This document shows positions 24,140-45,200 of a stretch of 64,000 bases of DNA, in pieces. A program made the position numbers and the translations under genes. The notes under the pieces are model-generated. The model saw nothing but the letters and a program-made list of their open reading frames with translations, did not search any database and was not told the DNA's origin. Position 1 is the first letter of the stretch, and every line of letters starts with the position of its first letter. This stretch comes from Paramacrobiotus metropolitanus (Eukaryota > Tardigrada > Eutardigrada > Parachela > Macrobiotidae). The DNA is taken from the NCBI RefSeq assembly GCF_019649055.1, contig NW_026570303.1, positions 186,001 through 250,000 on the forward strand. Reading direction: 5' to 3'.

Positions 24140-25030
24140 GCTTGCCGTAGAAGGAAATTCAGCACATCATAACACGGGCGAAATCATCCTTCCTCTGGAA
24201 TACGCAAAACGAAAAAGTGGAAAGGGATACCATGGAATTCGTCAAGCTGGGAATGGGACGATGGTTTCGTTAAACGCTACAGCAAAACGTCCAAAATGGT
24301 ACAGTATGACTGGTATCCCGAGTAAGCAACACTGTTAACCGAAAGTGAAGTCGTGATCACTGTGAATGATGGCAGACAGAAATCCAAGATCAGTAAGTCT
24401 CTGAAAGATAGGGGGACGCTACAAAAAATACGAAGAATTATTGTACACACTACAAAGTACAAACTAAAACCTAAAATGTACAAACATGAAACAAACTGAC
24501 AAGTGAAAACTGCCAAAGCAGCAAAGTGCAAACTGCAAACACCAAAAAAATAGCGAACATATTTTATGCGATGGTTTAAGGTGGTACAAGGAAAAACGGT
24601 ATGCGCCACATACCGAGCATCCCCACCGGAAATGCCAATTATAAACCAAATCAACTTATCCCGGAGCCCAAAATTCTGATTTAAATGGAAGGATTATAAT
24701 TTTTAAAGATTTACGATCATTTCTGTTCCGAGGAATACGACAAAGTTTAATTTAAAAACTACTGCATTCGTATGATTTTGTTTTTGCGTTATGTAGTATT
24801 ACTGTTTTCGCTTAATGCGGCTGAAGAGCTCATTTTCTAGTTCTGTGACGTAGTCGCCGCTGCAACAGCAAGTCTGCAGAAGTCTGCAACAACTTGAAGT
24901 CAAAAAGACGAAATAAAAATAAAATACTTTTGTTTGTTCTAGTTGGAATTCTAGCTATTTTGCTCCATGTTCCAGGTTTAACCTGGCCGCATCTGTGATT
25001 GGGAGAGTGCTGCAGCGAAAACAGTCTTCG
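24140..25030. promoter_or_regulatory. Divergent intergenic region between TMX3 and LHPP
   Basis: The 890 bp separate two genes transcribed away from each other, so both promoters should lie here. No clear TATA box was found for either. The minus-strand open frame 24277-24654 is hydrophobic but has no family match and no splice partner. Confidence 0.4.
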
Positions 25031-26356
25031 ATGCATATCGATATGTCTAAGAAATGGCTGGAAGGGAAGGGGTTTCTGCTGGATATCACCGGAGTGCTGT
25101 ACGATAGTTGTGGCGCGACGGGAACCGCTATTCCCGGGTCCATCGAAGCCCTGCAGCTGCTACGACAGCATCATGTTCCCTTCCGTTTTATCACCAACGA
25201 AAGCACCTCCGACCGCCAGCACTTGGCCGTGAAACTCAACACGCTGGGCTTTGAGATCGGCGCGGAAGAGATCATCGCACCAGCACCACAGGTTGTCAAG
25301 GTACGCACTTTATTGGTTCGCATCAATACTTTTTTTCACTTTGCTTCGCTGGTGTTGTGTTGAAATTCACGGCTCCTGCATTTTTCCACTCTTTTGTATT
25401 TTGTTAAATATTTGGTATTTGTAATTTTGTATGCATGCAAGAGAAAGTTTGCAGTGAAAGGCAGAAACCTCGGAAGAAATAAAATCCTAAAAAGTAAAAA
25501 CTGCTAAAAATAAAATTGTTGAATTGCGTGGCGTGGGGTGCCGAGGGTACAGATAATACATTTGTGAATAGTTTTTTTGTGATTTTATCACTTGCATTTT
25601 TCCCTGTATTTTTCGGTTTGCTGCTGCACTTAATTAATGCACCGGAAAGCTCGTCGTGTTCAGAAATATTACAGAAAATTCAGAAATGCTATCTATTGTA
25701 TGTATATATGTGTAGTGTGTGCAGAAAAATATTTCGAAAACAGTGGGGCGTAGTGTGGCGAGGATTTAGATAGCAGGCTATAGAAAACAACTAATTGTGC
25801 GTTTCTCCAACAGATTCTGCGCGAACGCGGTCTGCGCCCATTCCTCCTAGTAAAAGACACCGTCCTCCCCGAATTCGCCGGCCTCAACACCATGAACCCC
25901 AACTGCGTGGTGATGGGCGACGCGCAGGACAACTTCTCCTACGAGAACATCAACCGCGCCTTCTCCGTCCTCATCAACCTCGCACAGCCGGTCCTCATAT
26001 CCATGGGCTGCGGCCGGTACTACAAAGAGACCGACGGCTTAAAAATGGACGTGGGGGCCTACTGCAAGGGCCTAGAGTACGCCTGCGGCATCCAGGCGGA
26101 ATACTGCGGCAAACCCGATCCCCGTTTCTTCCAGGCGGCCCTGGACAGTCTCGGGCTGGAGTCGGACACGGTGGTGATGGTGGGGGATGATGTGCGGAAT
26201 GATGTGAACGGGGCGCAGAAGGCCGGGATGATGGGGGTGCTGGTGCAGACGGGGAAGTATCGGACGGGCGATGAGGGACGCGGGGAGAAGCGGCCCGATG
26301 CTGTGATGGGGAATCTGCTGGGGGTGGTCAGAGCGTATTTGGATGCCGCGAAATAA
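25031..26356 (+). CDS. LHPP: Phospholysine phosphohistidine inorganic pyrophosphate phosphatase
   Basis: This is a HAD-superfamily hydrolase that removes phosphate from phosphohistidine or phospholysine and cleaves pyrophosphate in the cytosol. There are two exons, 25031-25300 and 25814-26356, joined in phase 0 (GTACGC donor, CAACAG acceptor), for 270 aa, the usual family length. HAD motif I is LLDITGVLYD with the nucleophilic Asp, motif II is around RFITNES, the GRYYKETDGL and ACGI blocks match human LHPP, and the last motif is MVGDDVRNDVNGAQ. The first ATG at 25031 is used; a second in-frame ATG lies 12 bases later. The second exon is clearly more GC-rich than the surrounding DNA. AATAAA is at 26376-26381. 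Confidence 0.93.
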
Positions 26357-26375
26357 GCCGGATAGACGATTGGTA

Positions 26376-26381
26376 AATAAA
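26376..26381 (+). terminator. LHPP: Poly(A) signal of LHPP
   Basis: AATAAA begins 20 bases after the LHPP stop codon, which would give a very short 3' UTR. Confidence 0.5.
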
Positions 26382-27067
26382 TTTTACAATTTTTTTCCTC
26401 GGTGAATATAGGCTGGAAGCTTTTTTTTGTTTTACTGGTGTTTTTTGATTCCCGGACGTGCCTTTATTAGACCAGATTTATCGGATAATCTACGAGTTAT
26501 CGGAATATATTGTTGACATAATCTCTGCAGGATAATTCAGCTGACGTTGTTAAGGCTACAATTTATCGCGAAGCGTTGTTGAAGTTTGATTTTCCACTGG
26601 TGGAGTTGCAAATGCATTGTAAAATTTAAACAAAAATGCGAAATTGACCAAAAATTTGTGTTAGTGTTACCTTGGGTGCGCAACTATACAGTATACAGTA
26701 CATATTACCGAATATTGTACATTAGTAAAACTAGTAACCAAAATTTGATAACGAACATTTCACTCGTCAAGCAAAATTCACCAGTGTTTACTAAATTTTG
26801 ACCGTTAACAGTGCTAATATCAGACGAGTAATAATATAATATCACACTATCTAATCCATTCATTCTGATTCAGTGATTCGGAAATCTGATCCACTATGAG
26901 CATAGAGACTAATACTGTATATTTCTGTATGCATTGATGCGAATTAAAATTTTTGCGCTAACTAACAAATTGTATGCACTGTTGCCAGAATGGTACCTAA
27001 GCTTCTAACAAAAATTACGAAAAAATACGTAAACGCGGAAAGTGTGTCCATTCGACTCACTGCGAAA
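26382..27067. other. Convergent intergenic stretch
   Basis: 3' flanks of LHPP (+) and of BTB-family gene A (-). AT-rich, no other feature seen. Confidence 0.4.
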
Positions 27068-30000
27068 TCAACTTTTGCCCCCGCCGATGTCTTTCAACAA
27101 CGGATGCGCCAATATCTCCGTCATCAACTGGGTCCACTGCGGGACACCGCGCAGTAACAGTCCCAATCCCCGCAAAACCATTTTTTGACCGATGCCGAGT
27201 TGCTGTTGGGTACCATCGCAGAAATTGCGACATAAACCTTGGGTCATCTCCTTCACCGCGTCCAGATCGAATCCGTGGTTCGGTTCACACAAGCGCTCCA
27301 GTAAGGTCAGCTGCAGCCACAGCTTAAACGGCTGAAAATCCCAGGCGATGGCTAATTTCAACAGTTCCACTATGCCCTCGGGAGTCAGTCGGGACGGATC
27401 CAAATGCAAGACGTCGAACTGCGTGCCGGCCGCCGCGGCATCGATGAACGCCATCATGGTTTCCTTGCTCACGTTGGCGTCGTACATGGTGACCTTTAGA
27501 ACATAGCTTTTGTATTCACTTCAAGTTTTTCGTATTAAAAGGCTTACGTACAGTACCATGGCCGGCATTTATTTAACACTAATATTTCGTAAGAAAGATG
27601 CACAGTTAATTTTTATATTATACTAATGCAATGTGTTAAGCAGATTATATAAGTTAGTGCTTCGACTTGTACAAGTATCTGAACAGCTTGTAGGAAGTAC
27701 CTTATAATTTTTGTCAAAATTACAATTTGTATAATGCAAAATTTAATACAGTACTTCCTTGAAACATAGCACTCTTCGACGTCCATTAAAACCGACAAGT
27801 AAAAATTTTTGCCTTGTTTACTGCTTTGCAAATGCACGAACTTTTATCCATACTGCAACTGCCTAATATCGTTACTGATCGACGATCATAATTCAATCGT
27901 GAATTATGTACGTATATCGTGTTTATGTGATACGGTCAATTATAAAATTGTTAGTTTTATTTAAAATCAATTTACTTGCAGTATGCCGGTATAAGGTATG
28001 CTTGTTCTTACGTTAATGTACCGAAAGTTACAGATACTTCTAGTCATAACCACTTGGAAACACTTCTTTTGCATGACGCATAACTCTACGAATATCGAAT
28101 ACTGAACAGGCAAGGAAGCTTCCGGCTCACCTTCCCCTGCTGTGTTTCCCCAAAGAGCCGTGCCGCAGTATCGGACAGGTTAACGAGAATACGACGGTCC
28201 ACCTTCACACTCCAGCGTAATTCCTTACGCAGCAGCACATTATCCACTCCCGCGTATCGCTTGACATCCGATTCGCCAACTTCCACCGGCACCGGTCCGC
28301 GCACTTGCCGCCACAGTTCCCGCAGAATGTGCCGCATGGGCACACGGAAGCGCACGTAACAAAAGGCCTTCAGGAAGACACGCAGGTCGTCAGCGGTGTC
28401 GGCGGTTGTAAGACCTTTGACTTTCACCAGCGATTCGTTGAGCGTGATGAGATCTGTGTTACTCTTTGGAGCTATGTCGATTTTGGCCGTCTCCGGATTG
28501 ACGAAAACCAGCGAGACGGACATTATCTCGGCGTCTGCCGGCAGCCGCTCGAAGCGGATGTTGGCGTGCCAGGGGATCTGGAAGCGGGATGAGTTGGAAC
28601 GTGGTGTGTCCGCCGTTTTCTCTACTGCTAAGCGAATAAAAAAGTCTTAAACGCCGCAAAAGTTTATTCTAATAGAATGCTCAGTACTGGATCATATAAT
28701 TATAGATATTTTAATGCTTTCTGGGGAATTTCGTAAAACAACATTTTGGTGGTTGGGCGACAGTTTCGTATGGGTATCTATGCATGATTACATATCATAA
28801 AACCTTTTTGGTTAATAAAATTCGTGCAGTACACAAGACGGCAAGGATTACGAAATACAGTTAATTCGTATGGGCAGTGTTTCTTCGTTCACCAGTAAAT
28901 CAGTAATCACCACTGGCAGTGCGTAGCAGCGTACGTTAAAACATGGCGGTATTCTCTTTGAAAGGCGTATAATACGTATCTGCACTCCACGTCAATCGCG
29001 GTCCGTCATGCAGTTCACCATGGCAGGTAAACGGATGTCAACAAGTTGGACTGTGTACTTAATTCGATTCGTCCGATAACGGTTAGACGATGTCACGGTA
29101 ACCACACTACTCGTAGTACCTGATGTATTCTATACACTGGCCGACAAAATTATAATAGAAATATCCCGGCCCGATTTTACGTACATATAATAGTTATTAT
29201 CATATTTTATTGACAGTTTAATTAAAGCCGTGGAGTATTTATTATTAACATACGATATTATGTTACCAAATACTGGATGCACGAGCCGATACATGTGTAT
29301 CACTTAAACCAAATTGTGTACATGCACGGGAAGTTTCGTTTTATCGCCCCAAAAGCTCTTTTTGCTTATATTGATGTAAATACATTTTTCTACAAACTTT
29401 CAAACTTCGAGGGATACCGGTACTTTATCAGACTTTTGATACGCTTACTCTGTATAGTCCTCGTAGTTGCAACTTCTTTAATACAGTATACACAGAGCAT
29501 CGGGAAAAACTGTTAAGAAGTGCGCGGGCGCGAATGTTTCCTTTTACGCGCACGGTACACGAACTTGTTGCTTATTGCCGGCAAACTTATTAGTTTTCAT
29601 ATAATTTTATATAGATATCTTCACTGCACTTACTAAACGCCTGCAGCTCTACTCCGTTATCCAGCCAATCGGGCAACGGCAGCAGCTCCTTCCCGCTGAT
29701 GATCAGGCGCACCCACTCCAGCTTGCCCCTTCCGTAATCGTTGGTCCACAGACGCTGCACACCCTTCTCCCGTTGGAAGGTGTACATGGCGCAACAAGCC
29801 AGTAGGTCGCCGCTGACCGGCTTCTTTGTGCTGGTCACCTTGAAGAGCTCGTCGTGCACGTTGGCCAGCATCCGGCTGATTTCCGGCTCCATGGTCTGCA
29901 CACGCTGCATGAAGGTAGACGGGGCCGGTGGTGCGGCGTGCGATGTCGACGCGGTCTCCTCGGTGCTGCGCCGGCGTTTACGCTCGGGTGAGGCGCCGGC

Positions 30001-30087
30001 TCCTGCCTGGGGCGCACTACCGCCGACGGGTGGTGGTGGTGGCATGTTAGCCGTGCTGCGATTGGGATCGCTTGGTGTGGTGTCCAT
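27068..30087 (-). CDS. BTB-family paralogue A, lacks the ubiquitin-like tail
   Basis: There are three exons, 30087..29634, 28627..28131 and 27493..27068, in phases 1 and 0, for 458 aa. The N-terminus is disordered, with a polyproline run (MPPPPPV) and a basic ERKRRR nuclear-signal-like patch. An unknown domain follows, with VQRLWTNDYGRGKLEWV. The end of exon 2 and exon 3 read as a divergent BTB fold: VDRRILVNLSDTAARLFG in place of the usual VHKAVLA...F, then AFIDAAAAG and EGIVELLKLAIAWDF. After the BTB-like helices comes a BACK-like helical part (IGQKMVLRGLGLLLRGVPQW). The protein stops at HPLLKDIGGGKS, where B and C continue into a ubiquitin-like domain. BTB proteins often act as Cul3 ubiquitin-ligase adaptors; that role here is inference. 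Confidence 0.72.
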
Positions 30088-31499
30088 TATTCTCTTGCCG
30101 GCTTAAAGAAAATTCAAAATTCTCAAACTGAAAGCGATATTAAACACCAAACATAAGAAAATGAGAGTGACTGCTTTGAGTGCTTTCGCCAGATCGAAAG
30201 AGCGCGCCTACCAGCAAGCAGAGCAGCTAGCGTTCTCTACCGAGGTACAGGATGTGGGATTGTTTAGAATATTCAAATCACGCAACAGAACTGCGAATTA
30301 CTTTTTCTCCAGAAGCAGACGTCGACTTCAGTGACACAAATCAGAAGGCTCCACGCTAATGTACCGTAGTTCGCACACTCACAACAAATTGCCGCTATAA
30401 GTGACAACTTGGTCGATTTATCTGAAATTAGCACTGTACTTGTCGGAGATTTGAGACAAATGGGATAAACTAGCCGCTAATGGCACTTCAGTCGTCGCCA
30501 GAGCACGGCATTTCCGGATTCGCAAGTACAATAAACTGAAATTGTGCAATTTAGTTGCCTGGACAAGTGGCTTGTTCGTAGTCGGTCGAAATCACCATGG
30601 TACAGTTGCTGGGCATAGGTAAGTCTACGAATGGTACCAGCAAACAACGGTTTCGAACCTTCTGATCATTATCTTGCAACATGCCCAGCTCATTTTTTTT
30701 GTTTACGGGTGATTTTACATGGAATGTTTACAGGCGGCGGCACCGGTGAAAACAAAGGCTCTGTAGCACACGAAATAGTAAAGGTCAGAAAATGCAACCA
30801 AGCCAAGAGATGGTGCGACTTCGAACTTGTCACCATCTGCAGCATCCCGAACAGAAAAAGGAGAAAATTTACCGTCATACCTTACAACCACGGAAAAACG
30901 AAATGGTTGTTTCGCTAGGCCATCTTTTAATTTCAGGTGTCTTTATGATGTCAGATTTACTTGATCGTTTTACCGACTACTAAAAAATATATTATTGTAA
31001 TCTCAGCAAGCTATCCTAAAAGCTCAGTAATCAAAGGCAATAATTTGTCACGCTAGGTTGTCAAGTTTAGTTTTCAACAGGTGGTCACTGTTTAATGAAT
31101 TGTAATCAAAAAAGATTACGTACAAAACTTTACATACTGTATCTCATTTCATGAGTGAGCAGCGGAATTAAGTACATTTTATTGATAACCAAATCAGTTA
31201 GGTAACTGAAACCACCACAACAAAAATTTCAAACTTGCCGGGAAAGTTTCACCAGTATTCTGACTGTTTAAAAAAATTCCCTCGAACTTCCACAGAATTT
31301 CTGACTATGTCCTTAATACAACATAATAAGTACAGTATACTACGTTTCGCACGGCAGCCCGAAACATTCAAATTCTGTAAATTCAAACATTCAAAACAGT
31401 CAAATGATTCAAATTAGGCCAACAAAATTCGAACCATAAACAAGTAGCAAGAATCAAGAAAAAACCACCAAAACAGCGGAAAACAATATGTCGGCCAAC
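30088..31499. other. Intergenic stretch between BTB genes A and B, with an anillin-end relic
   Basis: 30110-30420 resembles the region upstream of gene B (a shared GCCAGATCGAA block and following AT-rich pattern), so the promoter was probably duplicated with the gene. 30690-30905 resembles the 3' flank of anillin near 41910-42080. The rest shows no supported feature. Confidence 0.45.
30690..30905 (-). pseudogene. Short relic of the anillin 3' flank
   Basis: The stretch contains GAAAACAAAGGCTCT, GTCAGAAAA, GAAAATTTACCGTCAT and AACCACGG in the same order and with similar spacing to 41910-42080, just past the anillin stop. No coding part of anillin is left. It sits upstream of BTB gene A, as the anillin pseudogene sits upstream of B and anillin itself upstream of C. 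Confidence 0.5.
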
Positions 31500-31724
31500 T
31501 CACAAGGGAATCATCTTCATCCGCAGTGTACTCCCTTCTTGAACATTGCAATCTGCCAAGCACAACGCATCCGGCAGCACCTTGCCATCCAGCGTAATCT
31601 CCTGCTGCTCCATGGGAATCAACTCGGTGCTTTGCAGCATGGCTTTGACCACGGCCACCCAGAAGGCAAGGTTGACCTTCAGATTGTACTTGCGTCCCTC
31701 TGCTGTCTCCATCAGCACGTAGGT
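31500..31724 (-). other. Ubiquitin-like domain of gene B
   Basis: Seventy-four codons plus stop with the beta-grasp spacing of ubiquitin (EGRKYN, then IPMEQQ, DGK and ADCNVQEGSTL). The terminal Gly-Gly is absent, so this is a fixed domain and not a modifier. Confidence 0.75.
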
Positions 31725-34057
31725 ATTAACCGGGAATGCCGGCGCACCAGGCTGCGCAATCTCTTTAAGGAGCGGATGCGCCAGCATCTCGGCGACCAAC
31801 TGGGTCCACTGCGGCACACCGCGCAATAGCAGCAGCAATCCCTGCAGCATCATTTTTTGGCCGATGCCCAGCGGTTCGGCAGCGTCCTTGCAGCCGCGAC
31901 ACAACCCCTTGGCCGTCTCCACTACGGCGCCCAGATCAAGCCCGTGATGCGGTTCACACAAGCGTTCCAATAAGGTTAGCTGGAGCCACAGCTTCAACGG
32001 CTGAAAATCCCAGGCGCAGGCCAAATTCAGCAGTTCCAGGATGCCTTCTGGACTCAGTCGGGACGGGTCCAAGGGGAACACGTCCGACTGGATGCCTGCC
32101 GCCGCGGCATCAATGAAGGCCAACATCGATTCCCTGCTCACGTTTATGTCATAAGCGCTGACCTTTAAAACAAGGAAACCGTTATAATATACAGAGTCTT
32201 CCAAGCGGTTGCATACTCACCTTTCCTTGTTGCGTTTCACCGAAGATCCGCAAGGTAATTTCAGAAATACTGCTAAGAATCCGGCGGTCAACTTTTATAT
32301 TCCAGCGTGATCCTCTGCGCAACACGACGTTATCAGCTGCAACATAACGCGCGGCATCCGGTTCGCCGGCTTCCACCGGCACCGGTCCGCGCACTTGCCG
32401 CAACTGCTCTCGCAGCAGATGCCTCAGGGGCACGCGGAAGCGCACGTAACAGCAGGCCTTCTGGAAGACACCCAAATCGTCGGCGGTGTTGGTGAGTGTG
32501 TGACCTCGGACCATGAGGAGCTTCTCGTTGAGCAGAGCGAGAACGGTGCTATGCTTTTGAGGTAGGTCAACCTTCGCCGCGTCGGAATTGACAAAAACCA
32601 GCGTGACAGACCCGACCACGCAGTCTGCCGGCAGTCGCCCGAAGCGGATGTTGGCGCACCAGGGGATTCGGAATCCGGTTGAGTGGGGTAGCATGGAATC
32701 CATCGTTTTCTCTACTGCAGATTGAATGCAAAATCAGTGCAAGAGCGAGAACTGTTTTCTATGTAAGAGTACGTTCATAGTATGAGTATAAATGCTCAGT
32801 AGTAAAATTACAAATCGTTGTAGCTATTAGCTAATACAGTAACATAATATATATACAAAATTTTCGAGAAGTACGACTATTTTTCTCCGATTCAGTACTG
32901 TACTTAATTTATGTAAAACCAGTTTAACCGTTATTAAGTGAATGCGTTGGTATGCACATATAGATATGCACACATACAATATATCCAAGAATAATATAAC
33001 AAAACAAAGCACAAGTACATAATTATTGCAGTTACTTTAACGGATAACGTACGCTGTAGTGTACAATGCTCTGCATCTTTGCTCACTACGAGGATTCCTT
33101 CGACAAATTATTATAGTATAACAACGTCCTGCACTGACAATAAAAGGCACTGAATTAAAGCGAATACCTTGGCTTGCCGCCAAGTCCTGTAATCTTACGT
33201 CAGTTCACTAGCCAACAATTCAAATTAGAGGCGAAATTTTCTCACATTATGAACTACGAGTATGTACAATACTTCGGTTAGTCAGTTTGATTTGCATGGC
33301 TGTACCACAACGGACGTGCACAATACTGCATGCATTATTAGTAATCGCACAAATTATTACAATTATTAGTAGCCACGTATTACCATGAAATGGTCACTGT
33401 AACACTGTTATACTCTACACAGACAAGAAAGCGCTTGCATGAAAAGTACCTCGCACTTAAACGGTATGACGTAATTTTACGTAAATACTGCTTTTCCACT
33501 ACGCGTCCTCACAACAAGAGCAAAAAACCAAACAGACAGCGCAGTGACCGCACACAAGCCTGACACCTACTATCCATAACACGATGATAACTGCACTTAC
33601 CGAAAACTTGTAGCTCCACTCGGCTATCGAGCCATCCCGGCAACGGCACCAGCGTCTCCCCGCTGACAACCATACTGACAAATTCCAGCTTGCCCATCCC
33701 GTAATCGTTGGTCCACAGCCGCTGCACGCCCGCCTCCCGCTGGTAGGTGTACAGGGCGCAACAGGTCAGGAGGTCGCCGCCGGTCGGGCTCCCTGCTCCC
33801 AGCTTCAGCAGCTCCACATGGGCGTCAGTCAACATCCGGCTAATCATCGGTTCCATGGCCCGCACTCGTTCCGTGAAGGTCATCGACGGGGCTGCGGCGC
33901 GGCCGTGCGAGGAGGCGGTTTCTTCACTCTGGCGCCGGCGTTTGCGCTCCGGTGGGTCCGCGCCAGTTCCTGCCTGGGAAATGCTACCATTGACAGCGAG
34001 TGGTGGTGGCATAATAATCGTTCCGTACTGATGATCGCTGGATGAGGTGTCCATCAC
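31500..34057 (-). CDS. BTB-family paralogue B with C-terminal ubiquitin-like domain
   Basis: There are three exons, 34057..33601, 32714..32221 and 32162..31500, for 537 aa. Intron phases and domain borders are the same as in A and C. In order there is a proline/basic N-terminus (ERKRRRQSEE), VQRLWTNDYGMGKLEFV, a linker with PWCANIRFGRLPADC, the divergent BTB (KVDRRILSSISEI, AFIDAAAAG, EGILELLNLACAWDF) and the helical part (RGVPQWTQLVAEML). Residues about 464-537 read as a ubiquitin-like domain: TYVLMETAEGRKYN, VVKAMLQ, IPMEQQ, LDGKVL, LADCNVQEGSTL. These match ubiquitin's GK, VKxxI, IPxxQQ, GKxL and LxDYNIxxxSTL positions. It ends MIPL without a Gly-Gly, so it cannot be conjugated like ubiquitin. 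I infer a ubiquitin-pathway adaptor. Confidence 0.75.
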
Positions 34058-34919
34058 TCGAACTGGAAAGTTATAATCCGTACGAGAAACAGGCTTTAAA
34101 AAGCGTCGTACCGAAAACCAGACTCAAGAAAAATGTGAGACACTAGTCGCGGTTTGTGCCAGATCGAATTAAAGGCAGGTGTGTAAGTGTCTTAGTGTAT
34201 CCTGAGACGTGTGGAATGCGGGATCAATTCAATTGTTCGACTAGGCGCAATAGAACGGCGAATGACTTTTGGCTGAGTGACAGAATTCTTTGGTCGCGCA
34301 GAGGGCACATGCGAACACCGCTCAGTACACTCTCGAATTGTGCGCGGATAGTGTGCGTTGTGGCAGCGCGCCCTTTTTTTCGACGTTAGCCCGCGATAAG
34401 GTAAGTTCGGACCGCCACAAACAAATGCCGCAGTGATCGTCAATTGCTGATTCTTTAAAACAAAATAATATTTCTCGTACTCGTACTCGTCGTATAGCCT
34501 ACTCATGGTCAAGTATATTGAAAATCGGAACCAGTAGTGGCAGTAAAACCGTTTTAACATTACGTACCGTTTCTTTCCATAAAAAATCGAAACCGCGACC
34601 TTTCACAAACAAATCAACTTACTTATTACGTGAAAATAAAGTAACAATTTTATCTACTTATCATTGCTCTGAAAATGCGTCTTGTATCTGATGTTCAAGC
34701 TGAAATCATCATGCAGAGTTAATCACATCTGCATAGGTATACCGTACTGCTGTCAATTGTACTGTATACGAATGTACTTGTATCAGCAAGTACTGTGTAT
34801 ACGAGTACAGTACAAAACTGTTTGTAGAATCGTTTCGATACCGCATCTGATTTTCGCAAGTGCAATTCACTTTTGTTCAAAGGTTTCTTTACGTTCACAG
34901 TTTACATGCTGTGCTACTG
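34058..34919. other. Upstream region of BTB gene B
   Basis: The start of this region resembles the upstream region of gene A. A run of three CGTACT/CTCGTA units occurs at about 34475-34495. No gene is supported. The minus-strand frame 34192-34560 has no recognisable domain. Confidence 0.4.
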
Positions 34920-36810
34920 CAAGAAAACAAAAGCTAGCTGCTACACGAAAAAATAAAAGTCAGAAAAGCAACGAAGCCGCAAAAAAAGAAGCACATAAAC
35001 TGTTGGTACAAGGGACATCCGAAACAAACCAGGAGAAACTTTGATCGTTATGACCACGGAGGAAAAAACAACTCTCCACTGCGTATCACCGCATACGGAC
35101 ACACAGACCCCCATTTAATACAGCTTTGATTCCAATATCCGAATGGTGATAAAGATAAGGTAAAGATAAGCCGCCAATGCCGATCAGCGAAGTCAGTCCA
35201 GTAACGGCTCGCGGAGACAGAGCGGTTCAAGGCCAAGTTCAAGACGGAGAGATGCTTCCTCGGCAGCCAACGTTTTTGTCCATTCCTCCTTCCACACGAA
35301 CCGGAACTCGAAATTTTATAAATTACAGGCAATTTATATTATATAATTCTATAAAAATCGCTAACCTTTTTAATAAATATATGTACAGTGCAGCGCTAGC
35401 TTTACTCATTACTGGGAAATGACACTTCCTTCATTGTGCAGAAATATTTGCTATTTTAAATGAGAATATCATTACCAAATTCGACGATTTTATAACCAAA
35501 ATGCCCAGTTAATTTTATGAATATTCCGCTAACTTGTATCATAAACTCCCGACTAACTTATATCAGTGGAGATTCAGTAGTTCATTCTTCATATAATTCA
35601 TCCGCACCAACTTAAAAATGCAGTTACAGCCCTATGTCAAAGTAGTAATTCTCTAATGCACAGTTAATTACAACTAATTATCAGCGAAAGTTTGTACGCG
35701 TACAGATACTTGTGTCTAATATAAATAATGGGCGTATTTCCACTCAAAGCCATCCTTATGATTTTCCAGCGACGCACTGAACTGCGTTTTTTCATTTCTA
35801 TTTTTAGTGTGCCTTCGTATTTCAACATTTTAAATAATTATTTTTAAATAATTATTTATTTATTATTTAAATAATTATTTTAAATAAATAAATTAAACTA
35901 AAAATCCGATCCGCCGGTACATTTTTTAAAACAATTTCGATTACATTATTCAGTGTAAAAATAATATCATGTCTTAAATATTTTAAATATGAAATAAATC
36001 AAAAATATAGCAGTCTACAGTGCATACAATAAGATTATAAGCAACATCAAAATAAATCAATATTAGTACTAGCTCACCCCAGCAGTGTGGCAGCATAAAC
36101 TTCCGGTGCTCATGTTTCATGCTGAACTTACGATTATGCTTCACTTCTTCAGTTACTAACTGCCCGGTGAAATGGAACCTCCCATCCTTCTGGAGATGCT
36201 GCAGTGCGCTGACTTTCTGCGTGCCCAACATATATAATTTCCCTCTGGAAACGACGAGGAATAAATAAGTAGTATTCAGTAATTTCGGTGCAGACTAATG
36301 AGACTCGTGCTGTATATAAAAATTCAAGCACTTATGACTTCTCAATTTCAGGTGCACAAAACTCGCGTTATAAAAAAACAAAAAATTCAAATTAAATAAA
36401 ATAAAAATTTCAAATAAAAAAATAAAATAAGCTCAAATAAAAAAATTTTAATAGTTAAAATTCTACAATAACTGAGAAGCTGGAACGCCAAAAGAAATAA
36501 GAATGCTAATTTAACTAAGTAACAAAGAGCCGAATTATGTGGAAGACGCCATCATCAGGGTAAAAAAAAACCATAACATCGAAAACTGCAGTTACAGAAA
36601 CAACAACACTCGACTGGAGTGTTTCGAAGGGAAACTGTCCAAATCGGCGCGCTTGACTGTACGCCGTGCACCGAGGACGCGCCAGGAATGTGTCATGGTG
36701 GCGGTGTGCTTGATTCAACTCCTTGTTTTGCTTTTTCTAGTTTTCCTTCTGCACTGCCATCTGATAACAACGCGCCACACGGTCACAACAAATGTGAGTC
36801 ACAAAAAAGA
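34920..36810 (-). pseudogene. Internally deleted anillin pseudogene
   Basis: Three blocks resemble separate parts of the intact anillin locus in the same order. 34920-35340 matches 41940-42360 (last exon and 3' flank; the TGA stop position reads TGG). 36085-36295 matches anillin exon 10 at 44000-44200, including GGAGATGCTGCAG and CTGCGTGCCCA. 36640-36805 matches 46345-46525 around the start of exon 5, including CACTGCCATCTGATAA next to ACACGGTCA. Introns are retained in the copy, so it came from genomic duplication, not from mRNA. The intervening exons are gone and frames are broken, so no anillin protein can be made. Confidence 0.75.
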
Positions 36811-37658
36811 GCAAGGTCACAGTCTGCTGAAAAAGTACAAGGAGTATAACTTATTCAACTCATATTTTTAATACGAGTAATTTCTACTGTTATGTATTTA
36901 TGCTATTTATGCATAAGTCAGCCGTATAAATACTGACGCTTAGGTTTTTCTGTTTTTCGCGCAAGTCCATCGATACTGATTTATATTTTGTATCTTCTGC
37001 ATTTGGATGTCAATTTGTAAGATATATCAATTATAATTTATCCTGTTTCATTATATGTATTGCCAATTAGAAAGTACAGTATCTATCGTTTTCCATTGTT
37101 AGACATAAAAATCATGATGGATTAAATACGTTTCTTATTATTAGTTAAGGTATTACGGAGACTGGTTAACATTTTGGATTATAGTAAACTACGGTAGTGC
37201 TTTACAAGAACAACGGCAAGATACCTACTATACCTGGTGTGATTTCACCGGCACGTTTTAAGAATTGAGAGTTTAAAAGGGAACTGGATAGTTGTGATTG
37301 GTGTCATCTGCAGTGATTCTGCAGATCCTTATCAAATATTAGTCATATTCGAATGTGCTGTATATTAATCTAATTTCTTGATTATTTGATCCTATTTGCC
37401 CAGAGTTACGCCCTGCTAGCACAAAATCTTTATTAACACAGCAACAACTTTGATTCGTAGCTATTTCATACGCAGAGCAGATTTCAGAATCCACCAACCA
37501 CAGCAGAAGTAAAAATATACTTACTGTCTGCATTTAAGCATCAGTACAATCTACGGTAAAACCGTAAATGCATTTAAAATGATTAATAAAATCCCAAACG
37601 TCACGTTACTGTTTAGTGTTTACACGTTACATCAGAAGCCCAAAGCGCGCAACGTATG
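36811..37658. other. Gene-free stretch
   Basis: AT-rich DNA between the anillin relic and an inverted-repeat element. The minus-strand frame 37339-37533 has a signal-like start but no partner exon and no recognised family. No supported gene. Confidence 0.35.
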
Positions 37659-38000
37659 TACTTCGCAGTTCGCATGGGGCCTTAAGTTTTCCCCTCTGAG
37701 GGGAAAACTCCCCCGCACATATGCCGCTTAGTCGTTTACACGCTTAAATCTGACTGCAGTTTAAAACTGCGTGCGTTGCGGCAACACGTTTGCAACTTTG
37801 CCGTTATCTGAGTTGTCATAGCTCTCTTGTTCAGTTGCGCAACCGGATATGCCGAGTTGGCTAGAAACCGCTTTTAACAATTGTAAGCTGCAGCCAACTT
37901 TAGCCTGCGTTCGTGTAAGCCACTAAGCGGCACATGTGCGGGGGAAAACAAAAATTCCCCGTACTGTATGAGGGGAAAACTAAAGGCCCCATGCGAAGTA
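37659..38000. mobile_element. MITE-like element with ~85-bp terminal inverted repeats
   Basis: The ends are inverted copies: TACTTCGC...GCATGGGGCC...GTTTTCCCCTC...CCCCCGCACAT.TGCCGCTTAG...TTACACG on the left, and the reverse complement on the right ending GCGAAGTA. Total length is about 342 bp with no coding capacity. Tips beginning TA suggest TA-type target sites, but the duplication could not be confirmed. It lies 92 bases past the stop of BTB gene C, so it may fall in that gene's 3' UTR. Confidence 0.75.
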
Positions 38001-38091
38001 TCCCAAAAAGAAAGCGGATAATACAGGTGGTATACCAACGCGGCAACTGCTTGTGATGCTTGATCACCGGGAAATATTTCCCGACCCCTGG

Positions 38092-38316
38092 CTACAGCGG
38101 AATAAACTTCATCTGAAGTACACTCCCTTCCTTCACTTTGCAATCCGCCAACGTCCGCGCGTCGTGTAACACCTTTCCATCGAGCGCTAACTCCTGCTGC
38201 TCAACGGGAACCACCTGCACATCGTGCAGTTTGGCTTTAACAATCCCAACCCAGTAGGCCAAGTTGACTTTAATATTATGCTTGCGTCCTTCCATAGTCT
38301 CCACAAAGATGTAGGA
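38092..38316 (-). other. Ubiquitin-like domain of gene C
   Basis: Seventy-four codons plus stop, aligned without gaps to the tail of gene B. EQQ, LDGKVL and the LADCKV turn are kept. No terminal Gly-Gly. Confidence 0.73.
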
Positions 38317-41089
38317 ATCAGCGGGTAAAAAGTCGGGCTGTACAATGCCCTTTAATAGTGGATGCTCCAGCATCGCGACCGGCAACTGGGTCCACTGCGG
38401 GACACCGCGCAGCATCAGCAGCAATCCCCGCAGAACCATTTTCTGTCCGATGCCGAGCTCTTCGGTAGTGTCCTTACAGCACCGACACAAACATTTGGCC
38501 GTCTCCATTACTGCGCTTAGATTGAAACCGTGGTCCGGCTCACACAAGCGTTCCATTAAAGTCAGCTGTAGCCACACTTTCAACGGCACAAAATCCCAGG
38601 CGCTGGCTAGTTTCAACAGTTCCAGTATGCCGGTGGGAGTCAGTCGGGAGGGATCCAAGGGAAACACTTCACACCGGGAGTCGGCTGCTGCGGCATGAAT
38701 GAATTTCAGCAGCAATTCCTTGCTTAGACATGGATCGTATGCGCTGACCTTTAAGTAAATTAAATTTTATTAGATCCTGGTATTCAATCACTTTGCAGTT
38801 TGCATACACTGCAAGTTTGCAACACTGCACCGCACTTATGCAAATAAAATGGAAATGGCCCGCTATGCCGCTAAGCGCATGTTTACAGCACCGACTTTGT
38901 ACTTCATCACTAAAATCCGCTTTCTTGCGCGCACAAGATAAAATTCTATAGCATTATTTCATAGCATTTAGCATTATTTTATTACATTCCTAAGCAAAAT
39001 AAGTATGCATTGACCAAAAAACCGTTTGTGCGCGTGATATTCACTATCCATTTTTTAAAATACGTATATGGTCGTGAATTAATATGCACGAAAGGTTTTT
39101 TAAATTAACGCATTGCCGTACGCGCAGCGCAGTGACAGAATAATAGTATCAGATATTTTAAAACATTGCAGTTTAAGTTCATTTGAAAATTGGTTCAAGC
39201 CCAAATGCTCCAATTTCTTTAAAATTACTCATTAACGATAAAAATCACAGTTCATTGCTGCGATTGCTTTCGGCGGTATGAACTGTGCGATGTGTCCTTA
39301 AGTAACAGATTTTTAAGTGATTATAAATAGCTTATTCATATTACAGTATTTGATTATTATTTTTAAGTGATCATGCATAGCTTTAATTAGCATAGTTGCA
39401 TGGACTATTCAGTTAAGTAATTGTCCTACAGTAAAATAAGCTACATACTACATAGTACGTCCACTACTAGACGGAAGATGATTAATTTTGGGTGTCGCTT
39501 ATCAAGCGCGGTAAATACAGTAACAAAGGTAATTGCTATATGTAAGTACCTTTCCCTGCCGTGATTCTCCAAAGATTCGTGCGGTAGTGCTGGAAATGTT
39601 GACGAGAGTGCGGCGATCCACATTCATATTCCAGTGTGATCCCTTGCGCAGCACGACGTTATCTGCACCCGCATAGTGCGCCGCATCATATTCGTTGGCT
39701 TCCGCCGGTACCGGTCCCCGCACATGCCGCAACTGCTCCCTTAGCAAACGCCGCAGCGGTGTGCGAAAGCACACCAAACAGTAGGCTTTGTGGAAAACGT
39801 CAGGTGTGTCGGTTTCCGTACGACCTTCGAGATTGACCACAGCCGCGTTGATCCGTCCGAGATCGGTGTTGTTCCTTGGTGCTAGCTTTATCGTGACCTC
39901 CCCGGGATTGACGAAAGTGAGCATGATGGACACCATCTCACAGTCTGCTGGTATCCGCCCGAAACGGATGTTGGCGAACCAGGGGATCAAGAAGCGGGTC
40001 GATGAGCTGGGGTGTGGGCGCCGTGTGATGTTCATCGTGTCCCCTACTGTATATAAAAACAATTCAATGATGTTGTTATTCACACAGTAGGACCATATAA
40101 AGCGGCACCATGGTACGGGATAATCAGATCATTCTTGGTTATCTAGACACCATAATTTCAACTCATGGTCAGAACCACTGTTCAATATATCGCGCGATTG
40201 GCAAGAACGGCAGTGCAGTAAGTACAGTGCGGCAAGAACGATACAATCTGCATGGAGCATGCGAACAGTCCAACACCCGTGTTCGCGGCCCACACCCGTG
40301 TTTTCCGGTGCAACCAGCATCGAACTTATTATGCATTGTTACCGTCGTTAGAAGGTAATCCGTTATACAATTGATTATTGATGCATATTCGGCAACTACC
40401 AAAAGTATTAATTTTGATAAAACGGACGATAGCTATTACGTACTACCTAGTAATTAGCCACTAACACTGTACAGATACAGAGCACAGTAACCCATCGGAG
40501 TTCTCAAACACCATAATTTTGCCTTGACGACGGTACCGGTTTCCCGCTACTGATGTCCTTATGAATTACAATTCAGTGCATGCATGTCCGTTAACTTATA
40601 CCCGCCATCAGACTCGTCCTTGCACTTACTAAAAACCTGTAGTTCGACTCGGCTGTCCATCCATTCGGGCAACGGCAACATATCCTTCTCGCTGCCGGCT
40701 ACGCGCACCCACTCCAGCGTACCTCTCCCGTAATCGTTGGTCCACAGACGCTGCACACCCGTAACCGGCTGGAACGTGTATTTAGCGGAACAAGCCAACA
40801 GGTCGCCACCGGCCGGGCTCATCAAGCGGCCCACTCCCAGCAATTCTTCCTGAGCGTTGGCCAACAGGATGTCCACATCCGGCACCATAGTCTGTACCCG
40901 CTGCATGAAGGCGGACGGCGCTGCACCGACGTAAGATTCCGTGTCCCCGTCAAGGCGTCGGCGTTTGCGGTGAGATAGGGGGTCACCGGTTTCAGCGGCT
41001 CCTCGGTGGCCGGGACTACCGTCGACAGGGAGTGGTGGGGGCATATTGGGCGTTGCGTATTGGGGATCGCGCAATGCAGTGTCCATCAT
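38092..41089 (-). CDS. BTB-family paralogue C with C-terminal ubiquitin-like domain
   Basis: There are three exons, 41089..40630, 40046..39550 and 38748..38092, for 537 aa, with the same phases as A and B. The N-terminus has MPPPLPV and HRKRRR, then VQRLWTNDYGRGTLEWV, then PWFANIRFGRIPADC. The divergent BTB (NVDRRTLVNISSTTARIFG, KFIHAAAA, TGILELLKLASAWDF) and the helical part (LRGVPQWTQLPVAML) follow. The last 74 residues are ubiquitin-like: YIFVETMEGRKHN, IVKAKLH, VPVEQQELALDGKVL, LADCKVKEGSVL, ending IPL. An alternative reading of the BTB part as a family-specific fold cannot be excluded. It lies directly downstream of anillin on the same strand, 1.1 kb away. Confidence 0.75.
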
Positions 41090-42222
41090 TAGGCTTATAA
41101 TTATTGTGATCCCCAGTCGTGACTCGGTTTACGAAAATATAATTACAATAAAAATAACAAAAATGTTAAAATGTATACTTTACGTATACATGTACGAGAC
41201 AATTAGCCGGATAAAGTAATCGAAAAGTACACCGCCGCAAAAGTAAACAAATGATTTTGTTAGATGTCACACGAAGATGTGCCAGAATGAAACAATATTA
41301 TGCATAAGGAGGCTGCGAAGCACTTTTGATTGGATGACGAAAGTCGCTTCAAATGGCGAACACACCGCAGAGGCCAATCGAAACACTCGGAAGCCCGCCC
41401 CACCAGACACCGCTGCGGTCTGCACTGTGGGAACGCGCTTTTTTGCCGGCGCCAGTGCATCGTCGCGCCATCAACTCGCGCCATAACATCAATGAATTTT
41501 TATTGCATTTTTCGGGACATCGCGGCGTCGAAGACGATTTGTCATTCCCGCTAATTTTCTTGCAAAAAACACTGCAATGCCTGAGTGACCTCCACGAATC
41601 AGACATTCTAAATTTTGTAAATTTAATCTTTTACAAATTATGAAAATCAGTTGCCCTGGAAAATTACGTCTTGATAGTCTTGTTAAGTACATTGCTGGTT
41701 AAGACTTTCTCAGTCACTGCGCCTTGCAAAACAATTTATGAGATTTACGGTAAGTTGAAACAAGTACATACGTGCATACGTTCCCATATCAGACATCTCG
41801 TATCTGTACACAAATGTGTCAGTAAACACCCGATTATACAATATCTCCCGAACTTTTTCGGCATGCGCTGTTTATTTCTGCTTACGGGACGTTTAACCAT
41901 GATTGCTCACACACGCGGCGGAGCCGTAAACCCGCAAAAAGAAAACAAAGGCTCTTGTGTTACGCGAAAAAATACTTACAAGTCAGAAAAGATAACGAAG
42001 TCACAAAGAAGCACAGAAACAGTTGGCACAAGCGGCATAAAAAAAAGTAGAAAATTTGACCGTTATGACCACGGAGAAACAACTCACCAGTACACAAACG
42101 TACACACACACACATTAATGAAACTCTCACCACTGCTGTACAACAACGCCCTTGCAAAGCTTAAATATCCAAATATCGATAAAGATAAAAAGAACCGCCA
42201 ATGCCAGGGTTCGGGAGGCAGT
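41090..42222. other. Region between BTB gene C and anillin
   Basis: Promoter side of gene C and 3' flank of anillin. The part from about 41910 is duplicated beside genes A and B. No additional gene is supported; the open frames near 41270-41690 overlap one another on both strands and have no domain. Confidence 0.4.
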
Positions 42223-45200
42223 TCAGTAGCGGCTCGTGGAGACGGAGCGGTTCAAGGTCGGCGGAATCCAGGCTTCCACCGCGGCCAGCGCTTTCGTCAG
42301 TTTCTCCATCCACACGAAACGCTCTTCTTTCCCGTCAGCGGCAAAATAATACCTGAAAATGAGAACATCACGAACTCCAGGCAGTTCCATTTCACTAATT
42401 TATAGTAGAAAATCAAACTCTCAGATCAAACAACGTGATGTAATGGGACATGAAAGCAATGGGAAATTTATACAAAATAATATCAACAACCAAGAACAGT
42501 ACGAAGTCCATTTACTAATTTATAGCAAAAAAAATTCTCAAATAAAAAAATGGGATACAATGGAAAATTCATACAAATCAATCAATCAAACGCAGCAGCG
42601 GAAACAGCAATGCAAACATATCCAAAATCGAATAACAAATGGAATTACTACTTCAATTTTATGATGTTCGGCTTACTTGTATGGACCGGAAGTTTGCGGC
42701 TCGCCAAACAGTTTGAAGGGACGAAGTGAGGTCAGCTGGAAAACGTGGGGCCGCGGGCACACTGTTGAGCTAACCGTCTGGACACCGCCCTTGCAGTAGC
42801 GCAAGCTAAACTGCAGCGGATCCTGCAGACAATTCGGTGTTAAAGCCAAAGGTACTGTACATCAATGCCAAAGTACACGGTATGAGTGAAATCTAATTCT
42901 GCTCACCACATCATGATCGCGCTCTTCCGGGTAGCGCCAGAAATACAGTCCGGTATCGTTCAGAACGCAGTACAGCCGGAACCAGTCCGCCGACGGATTG
43001 GATTCATCGGCCACGGTCTAAATTAATTATATTATAACTACAGAATAGTTAAATAACAAAATTTGGTTGGGCAGATTAGCAGAATTTTACCAAGAAGCCT
43101 TCTTCTCGATTTTCCAGCGACACCCCGCATTTCATTTCCATTACGAGTGACCCCTCAACGGCCGAATCCGCTGGCACCTAACGCATAAAAGTGCCATGTG
43201 TCAGCGAGCGAAAACTAAAATTGCAAGAAAACCAAAAAACATAACTGATCATCTAAGCCTTTACTATGTACACCGTATACCTTATGTAGTTCAAGAACTT
43301 TTTCATGGAGATTCTGGAGAGTGAGCGTAGTGGCTCCCACACAACCGAAACTCGACTGGCGTATTTCCTGCTTGGTCGGCGTCCCAGTGACCACATGACT
43401 GGCGGATCCCTCGCGCAACGACGGCAGCAGTTTCTTCAGTGTACCGCCTTTCTGCTTCTTACCCGATGCTTTCCCGTTGAGATGATACTTCTCCGCATGG
43501 GAATACTGCTCCTGATTAGCTTGCTATAAACAGCCAAACACTTTCAAATTTCAATCATGTTATAATTTTTGTAAAAATCCAAATTCAGTACGAGTATAAG
43601 AAAATAGATAAAAAAGTAATCACTGAATTATCCAGAGCATGAAAACGCACTTCAATGTTTCAGGTATGAATTAAATTAAAGAAATCCAACAGTCAGTTCA
43701 TCCGTGAAAAAAACCTTGGTTTCCTAGCTATCCAACGTTCTGAGTAGAAAAAGTGGGCTTCAATTTTTCAAGTACGATTATGCAAATAAAAAACCAAATA
43801 ATCGATATGTTAACAAAAAATACAATTTGCAATACCAAATTATCCGGCGTATAAAAATGCGTTATAAGATTTCAGATACAATATGAACTAAATTAGGAGA
43901 CCCAACAATGGATTAAACATTAGAGTGAAAAGCCCCAAAATCGGTATAAAGGAGAACTTTGATTAATCATCCAATTGACCAGTATAACAGTGCAGTGCAT
44001 TAGCAAACATACCACAGCATAAACTTCCACGCTCATGGTGAAATCATTTTCCAGATCTTCAAAAACCAACGGCCCGGTAAAGTGAAACGTTCCATCCTGC
44101 TGGAGATGCTGCAGAGTGCTGACCATCTGCGTGCCCAGCACGATTTCCCTCTGACGGAACAGGACAAGGAAATAATGCAGCACTTCCGCTGTAACCAAAA
44201 TAAAAATTTATAATAGTAGCAACAATTATGGCAGTTTTTTTAAGAACTGGGAAATTTACACTGCGATGCCATGCACTCGGCAAATCCTTCCTTCGTCGGC
44301 AGAATGATATGGTTGATGACAATCTTCCCGCGTACGGTGTTGTCCGGGATGTAATTGTTGGTCTTCACCTCCAGCACCATATTTTTCAAGCGGACAATCT
44401 CATTATGGCACGCTTCCCTTTTCTTGGCTGCAAATCATAACAGCCTTTTCGTCAAAATTTTTATAGAATAATCAAAGGTAGCCTTACAGGCTAGCAACAG
44501 CAGACGTTCACATTCCGCGCGTTCCACGCTGCCCTGAAATTCGGGAGTCGACCGGCACAGGTTCAATGCCGCTGTCGTCTGGACCAGCATGCAGTGCTGA
44601 TGACTGGCCGACGTATGCAAAGCCTGCAATAAAAACGATGTATGAGCACAAGTACATTAACTTATACAAATTATACTGCCAGCTGAAAAATTCATTCACC
44701 GCAAAACTGGAAATTATTCAATAACGAAGAATACCTAGTTGATCAAAGCTGACGGAAATCTATCTGCCACAAAAAAAACTTATCGCTGTTAAAAAAGCAA
44801 CTAACAAACACAACCACAACAACACAACTAACAAACGCAAATAAAGAAGTAGGTACAATGGTACAAGGAAAAAGTAAAGATGTACTAGGTACATAAAAAA
44901 ATCTTAAGAAAACAGAAATACGAGTAGCAAAAGTCGACATATTAATTAATCAAATTTACTGTGCCTTCATTTTTTATTTTAAACGAAATTATACATGGTA
45001 AAAATTGCGAATTCTTCAGTTATGAAGAAAGAGTAGATCCCAAATAAGCCGGTGAAAGAAACAGTATTAAGGGGTGTGTTTTAAGGAATAAAATATAAGA
45101 CTGCAAGTATGAAAGTATAAGTATAAAGTTCGAAACTCAAAATATTCATCATTCATAATACCTCGATTTTCTTTTGCAGAATCGCAACTGTTCGCACTTT

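Follow-up and report, generated by a model that had tools for sequence, protein, structure and literature searches.

Results

Three tandem genes with a common exon plan

The DNA considered here is a window of 64,000 nucleotides from the tardigrade Paramacrobiotus metropolitanus (NW_026570303.1, 186,001-250,000; the contig is called C83 below, and coordinates are positions within the window unless a contig is named). It holds a tandem array of three minus-strand genes, A (30087-27068, 457 amino acids), B (34054-31500, 536 amino acids) and C (41089-38092, 537 amino acids), which possess a divergent BTB-like region and, in B and C, a ubiquitin-like domain at the C-terminus. Each gene model comprises three exons separated by GT-AG introns, the positions and phases of which are equivalent across A, B and C. 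An earlier note on this DNA had proposed tandem paralogues with a common exon structure, and the three matching models cover exactly the span it marked.

Exon 1 (29634-30087 in A, 33601-34054 in B and 40630-41089 in C, all on the minus strand, as are the exons that follow) encodes a proline- and basic-rich N-terminus and then a domain, at approximately 40924-40631 in C, with the motif RLWTNDYG; the motif, which the note had picked out as the mark of a shared domain, is present in A, B and C, and 16 aligned family rows give the consensus NDYGxGKLE. Exon 2 (28131-28624 in A, 32221-32714 in B and 39550-40046 in C) encodes a further domain, referred to as domain 2 (about 40014-39697 in C), and the opening part of the BTB region (starting at about 32334 in B, and about 39660-39550 in C), which is thus split between exons 2 and 3. 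Exon 3 (27068-27493 in A, 31500-32162 in B and 38092-38748 in C) encodes the remainder of the BTB region (to about 31953 in B and 38530 in C) and a BACK-like region (about 38529-38341 in C), whereupon gene A reaches its stop and genes B and C continue, in a single open frame, into the ubiquitin-like domain. The suspicion that this last block might belong to another gene is answered at the DNA level, as the ubiquitin-like end and the second BTB half share an open exon 3.

The ubiquitin-like domain occupies 31503-31724 in B (residues 463-536) and 38095-38316 in C (residues 464-537), and in both its last residue corresponds to ubiquitin position 74. Pfam recognizes the 74-residue end that the note had described in these two genes (PF00240, 1.3e-10 and 41.3 bits in B, 7.2e-15 and 55 bits in C; cut-off 25.4 bits). 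No Pfam ubiquitin match is found in gene A, and neither the three minus-strand frames of 26360-27140 nor a genome search with C discloses a ubiquitin-like remnant after it.

The ratio of nonsynonymous to synonymous change (dN/dS, NG86 method) among A, B and C lies between 0.25 and 0.46 across nine values, three exons by three pairs, including 0.35 and 0.39 for exon 1 of gene A against B and C, respectively. Eight other paralogue pairs give 0.25-0.39, and the ubiquitin-like domain alone, compared between B and C over its 74 codons, gives 0.27. By this comparison, A, B and C are real, constrained genes.

A divergent BTB region and its N-terminal companions

The Pfam BTB model PF00651 matches neither A, B and C nor any of 21 family rows, and it is profile-profile comparison that supports the divergent BTB fold the note had proposed. 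Aligned to 20 BTB domains encoded in this genome, the 21 family rows gave an hhalign score of 40.0 (P 1.4e-5, probability 80, 98 columns), compared with at most 16.5 for the sequence controls (16.5 for the reversed alignment, 15.7 for the best of 60 column shuffles); domain 2 scored 18.7, the exon 1 domain 14.1, and a longer family alignment 39.8. A, B and C alone matched at the same place (A 279-386) with a score of 30.5 and P of 0.0017, albeit with a probability of only 15, where the best of 100 shuffles reached 20.6 and the reversed alignment 15.8. A PDB profile search with the 21 rows returned three matches at E<=10, of which the best two were BTB chains of ZBTB7A at E 0.27 and 0.35, values that are not significant alone. 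The BACK-like region was assigned by its position and by the helices of a low-confidence model, and the hhalign match stops before it.

Neither the exon 1 domain (16 rows) nor domain 2 (12 rows) has a Pfam match above cut-off, and in PDB profile searches the former matched nothing and the latter gave a single weak match (EMC10, E 0.074). A MATH match is absent from the same 12 and 16 rows at the sequence level, which leaves room for a MATH-like fold; a genome-wide MATH search was silent for its controls too and is as such uninformative.

With regard to Cul3, BTB proteins equipped with a phi-x-E motif and a 3-box can serve as Cul3 receptors, and many KCTD proteins bind although they have neither (PMC13061254; this and the other papers cited are represented by excerpts of their text), and the phi-x-E motif has been described in KLHL3 (PMC3616122). 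Genes A, B and C each have F-G-E after the BTB helix, near the site of the motif. In the hhalign register, a glycine stands where the motif has its glutamate, and the loop is shortened by 2 residues (about 4 by eye). Inspection by eye placed the motif glutamate in 15 of the 20 same-genome BTB domains, preceded by a large hydrophobic residue in 8, and a glutamate anywhere in the loop in 4 of 16 paralogue rows.

A ubiquitin fold that ends in Gly-Cys in most copies

There are 33 ubiquitin-like ends available for comparison, namely those of B and C and of 31 paralogues elsewhere in the genome, and not one of them terminates in Gly-Gly, whereas both polyubiquitin loci examined end RGG*. Cysteine is the last residue, at ubiquitin position 76, in 22 ends (21 Gly-Cys and one Val-Cys), and two more have a cysteine aligned at 76 followed by one extra residue. 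The cysteine codons of the 22 are TGT in 13 and TGC in 9, and the stop that follows is TGA in 12, TAA in 6 and TAG in 4. The nine ends without the cysteine belong to B, C, the two single genes that fall into neither large clade of the family tree, a gene with the terminus Ser-Gly, another with the terminus Val-Ser-Arg, and three genes that seem to be frameshifted close to this end. No end reads C-A-A-X, and a CC motif is likewise absent.

Mapped on a tree of the BTB-BACK region (24 retained genes, all from the two large clades), position 76 changed twice, which ranks it 5 of 76; K27, Q40 and Q41 rank ahead of it and P37 ties with it, while positions 70-74 changed 8-12 times. These conservation counts omit five of the 33 ends, three that appear frameshifted near the end and two without a true N-terminal half in frame; if the three frameshifted rows are counted as losses, position 76 has no more than 5 changes instead of 2. 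The cysteine is kept even in copies that are only 21-29% identical to ubiquitin (genes on contigs C158 and C37). The codon at position 76 also changed little (2 changes in 20 genes), and part of the uniformity of the cysteine may therefore reflect shared descent. In the 28 rows used, Lys27 and Gln40 were invariant and Gln41 was kept in 27, and these three positions vary less than the remainder of the fold; K27, P37, Q40 and Q41 are all retained in both B and C.

The surface through which other proteins usually bind ubiquitin has fared differently across these ends. UBL (ubiquitin-like) domains use the Ile44 patch for proteasome docking. Most ubiquitin-binding domains bind the patch around Ile44 (PMC11799193). 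At positions 8, 44, 68 and 70, where ubiquitin has L, I, H and V, gene B has A/T/R/K and gene C has M/A/Q/K. The exact L8/I44/H68/V70 combination occurs in 5 of the 33 ends, and as one of these (C63h) is without a true N-terminal half, four are firm; a relaxed criterion (H68, with I/V/L/M at 44 and V/I at 70) takes in 12 of the 33, and neither B nor C is among them. A UBA match was found in none of A, B and C.

The family across the genome

The genome searched comprises 169.8 Mb on 533 contigs, and the counts that follow, coming from one genome, are lower bounds. Protein C gave 85 genome matches at E<=10, a number that includes plain ubiquitin. Copies that can be aligned in the BTB-BACK region number 33, A, B and C included, and lie on 11 contigs (C1, C3, C37, C38, C56, C63, C75, C83, C123, C158 and C400), with a further partial copy on C228. 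Among the 65 listed Pfam ubiquitin-family matches, 33 are ends of this BTB-ubiquitin family, and there is one more candidate at C3:256092. Among the paralogues, 21 open frames on 9 contigs encode both the BTB/BACK region and the ubiquitin-like end, which other copies have in a separate exon. The tree of the BTB-BACK region, a quick one in which 8 of 30 inner branches are strongly supported, groups A, B and C on one long branch, separate from the two large clades (12 and 16 genes); two single genes also fall outside these clades, one of them on a long branch of its own.

Four copies, L024 (C83:1-2500), L002, L011 and L019, contain internal stops or apparent frameshifts and are probable pseudogenes or assembly errors. 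On C63, from about 600941, a ubiquitin-like fragment ending Gly-Cys and without the N-terminal half lies beside frames that appear gag-like by eye. Ordinary BTB-domain matches number at least 151, clustered on C8, C59, C70, C101, C132, C182, C216 and others, and the genome holds a very large BTB expansion. Pattern-based scans of viral and prokaryotic collections found no relatives.

Surroundings of the array

A relic on the minus strand between B and C (34921-36811) matches, at 68-78% identity, the anillin-domain gene next to C and its surroundings at three places, with 34921-35303 pairing to 41939-42321, 36146-36247 to 44056-44153, and 36644-36811 to 46357-46528. No Pfam match is found in the relic frame 35983-36291. 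The relic is probably the footprint of the segmental, local duplication that produced the array. The anillin homology exon itself lies at 43920-44207 on the minus strand (Pfam Anillin, 3.5e-12), and a sub-threshold PH match (E 0.047) lies at 42862-43014. The array is adjoined by plus-strand exons of a HAD-type hydrolase at 24923-26356 (Pfam Hydrolase_6, 9.3e-17; Hydrolase_like, 1e-21).

Discussion

We favor, with a probability of roughly one half, the reading that these genes belong to a lineage-expanded family of BTB-type adaptors, most members of which carry their own, probably non-conjugable ubiquitin fold as a fixed mimic. In such a protein, the two-part N-terminal region formed by the exon 1 domain and domain 2 would probably bind partners, standing where MATH stands in MATH-BTB proteins; the BTB/BACK-like region would probably dimerize and may or may not bind Cul3; and the C-terminal ubiquitin fold would work in cis as a fixed mimic of ubiquitin. 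Because Gly-Cys replaces Gly-Gly in most paralogues, the ubiquitin-like domain should escape the usual charging and attachment. The genes of the window are unusual members of the family, in that A is without the fold and B and C keep a constrained fold that has neither the binding surface nor Gly-Cys. Since both B and C lack this surface and tail, family-specific contacts of their fold, be it with the BTB part or with a partner, are more likely than proteasome docking.

Several points weigh against this reading. The BTB region is below Pfam detection, and its best PDB profile matches are not significant (E 0.27 and 0.35); the exon 1 domain and domain 2 resemble nothing convincingly in Pfam or among PDB profiles. 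AlphaFold models of single exons, built from three-sequence alignments, were poor (pLDDT, the predicted local distance difference test, of 44.3 for exon 2 and 49.7 for exon 3), and Foldseek searches with these low-confidence models gave no match at E<=0.001. The call of a BACK-like region goes no further than position and low-confidence helices, and the phi-x-E motif for Cul3 is not clearly present. The absence of the ubiquitin-like domain from A may be a sign that the domain is dispensable. Last, the reading is drawn from sequence.

The earlier note had envisaged a self-contained adaptor in which Cul3 is recruited by the BTB part and docking of the complex to the proteasome falls to the ubiquitin-like end. 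The domain architecture fits this arrangement, the surface is retained under the relaxed criterion in 12 of the 33 ends and exactly in five, four of them firm, and the F-G-E of the window genes is readable as phi-x-E. However, all four surface positions are lost in B and C, A has no domain with which to dock, the motif glutamate lands on a glycine in the hhalign register, and by eye the motif glutamate is seen in 15 of 20 BTB domains, as opposed to a glutamate anywhere in the loop in 4 of 16 paralogue rows. As the surface is kept in a portion of the ends but lost in B and C, the docking idea suits some paralogues and is unsupported for the window genes, and we consider the complete adaptor improbable. 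It might alternatively be supposed that the ubiquitin-like end of the window genes is a decaying passenger, given that A is without the domain, that B and C are without surface and tail, and that three paralogues have apparent frameshifts at this very end. A domain-only dN/dS of 0.27 between B and C over 74 codons and the retention of K27, P37, Q40 and Q41 in both argue otherwise, and we hold decay, too, to be an improbable account. The simplest objection, that adjacent genes have been read as one, is contradicted by the single open frame that runs through the BTB/BACK region and the ubiquitin-like end in B, C and 21 paralogue frames on 9 contigs; we give it practically no weight. Fused neighboring genes are ruled out at the DNA level, exon 3 being open from the BACK-like region through the ubiquitin fold in B and C.

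The terminal cysteine invites explanations of its own. It may be the working part of the protein, forming a disulfide with targets or with the partner chain of a dimer, or receiving a lipid, in the manner reported for UBL3/MUB. In support of such a role, the residue closes 22 of 33 ends, changed only twice where positions 70-74 changed 8-12 times, and survives at 21-29% identity to ubiquitin; furthermore, the literature searched offers one parallel in UBL3, whose authors suggest that its C-terminal cysteines serve to modify targets through disulfide bonds (PMC6158211, as excerpted). A thiol or lipid role is possible. On the other hand, five frameshifted or incomplete rows of the 33 are omitted from the count, the low synonymous change at the codon means that shared descent may explain part of the conservation, CAAX and CC motifs are absent, the case is again one argued from sequence, and the window genes would go unexplained, as A, B and C and two other lineages are without the cysteine. 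We regard a role of this kind as unlikely. A more specific proposal, that the thirty-odd adaptors of the family would be tethered through Cys76, the replacement of ubiquitin's reactive Gly76, by a thiol or lipid linkage rather than an isopeptide bond and without an E1, to the partners that the N-terminal region picks, with the window genes lacking or having dropped the cysteine, strikes us as decidedly improbable. Another conceivable use of the same tail is as a cleavable cap. UFM1 is synthesized with a removable extension behind its glycine, and if the cysteine were removed likewise, the whole protein could be attached through the exposed glycine 75; the tail position, with the stop directly after the cysteine in 22 of 33 ends, agrees with this. 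A cap, though, need not stay cysteine, one paralogue ends Val-Cys, and we know of no enzyme for such a step, such that we judge this proposal very unlikely.

Should the favored reading of an adaptor with a built-in ubiquitin mimic hold, an animal lineage has fused ubiquitin to a degradation-type adaptor, and the expansion of the product supplies approximately half of the listed ubiquitin-family matches. The conserved Gly-Cys would allow a direct and inexpensive test of whether a ubiquitin fold is able to function by way of a terminal thiol. If the fold is nothing more than a mimic, the family is still a naturally occurring collection of ubiquitin variants, probably non-conjugable, of which some have the binding surface and some lack it.

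Comparison with known systems

The earlier note knew of no standard family with this arrangement, and the same holds here, in that hmmscan names no family for the full-length protein and the arrangement was not found in the open-access literature searched. Excerpts of PMC1257465, PMC3664471, PMC5531438 and PMC6797769 do not describe a BTB protein with a ubiquitin-like domain, and the terms "ubiquitin-like" and "UBL" are absent from the text of PMC1257465. The parts are known singly; their combination, its scale and the Gly-Cys end are not described in the open-access literature searched.

Conjugated ubiquitin-like modifiers differ from the family in the C-terminal Gly-Gly, which is absent from all 33 of its ends. 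The membrane-anchored UBL3/MUB proteins are not known to carry a BTB domain. They resemble the paralogues in having a ubiquitin fold with C-terminal cysteines that is reported not to act by the usual glycine-to-lysine route (PMC6158211, in excerpt), but UBL3 has a CAAX motif and two adjacent cysteines, where the paralogues end in a bare Gly-Cys at position 76. The UBL-UBA shuttles Rad23, ubiquilin and DDI2 (PMC11799193, in excerpt) likewise contain a fixed ubiquitin-like domain inside a larger protein; in contrast to these, A, B and C have no UBA match, and the surface is lost in B and C. The BTB-BACK receptors of Cul3, such as KLHL proteins and SPOP (excerpts of PMC3616122 and PMC13061254), share the order of a BTB domain and then a helical region, perhaps 3-box-like, whereas in the present family phi-x-E is not clearly present, the loop is shorter and a ubiquitin fold is added. 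A survey of plant MATH proteins records MATH domains combined with BTB and also with UBQ, yet within its excerpted text BTB stands in a class of its own (MATH-BTB) and BTB and UBQ are not described in one protein (PMC3664471). Lastly, in comparison with MATH-BTB proteins of the SPOP type, and their expansion in C. elegans, the family has no MATH match, bears a C-terminal ubiquitin fold and has a BTB region below Pfam detection, but it shares with them a partner-binding region before the BTB (in the present family, a probable one), a helical region after it, and a large lineage-specific expansion (PMC1257465, in excerpt).

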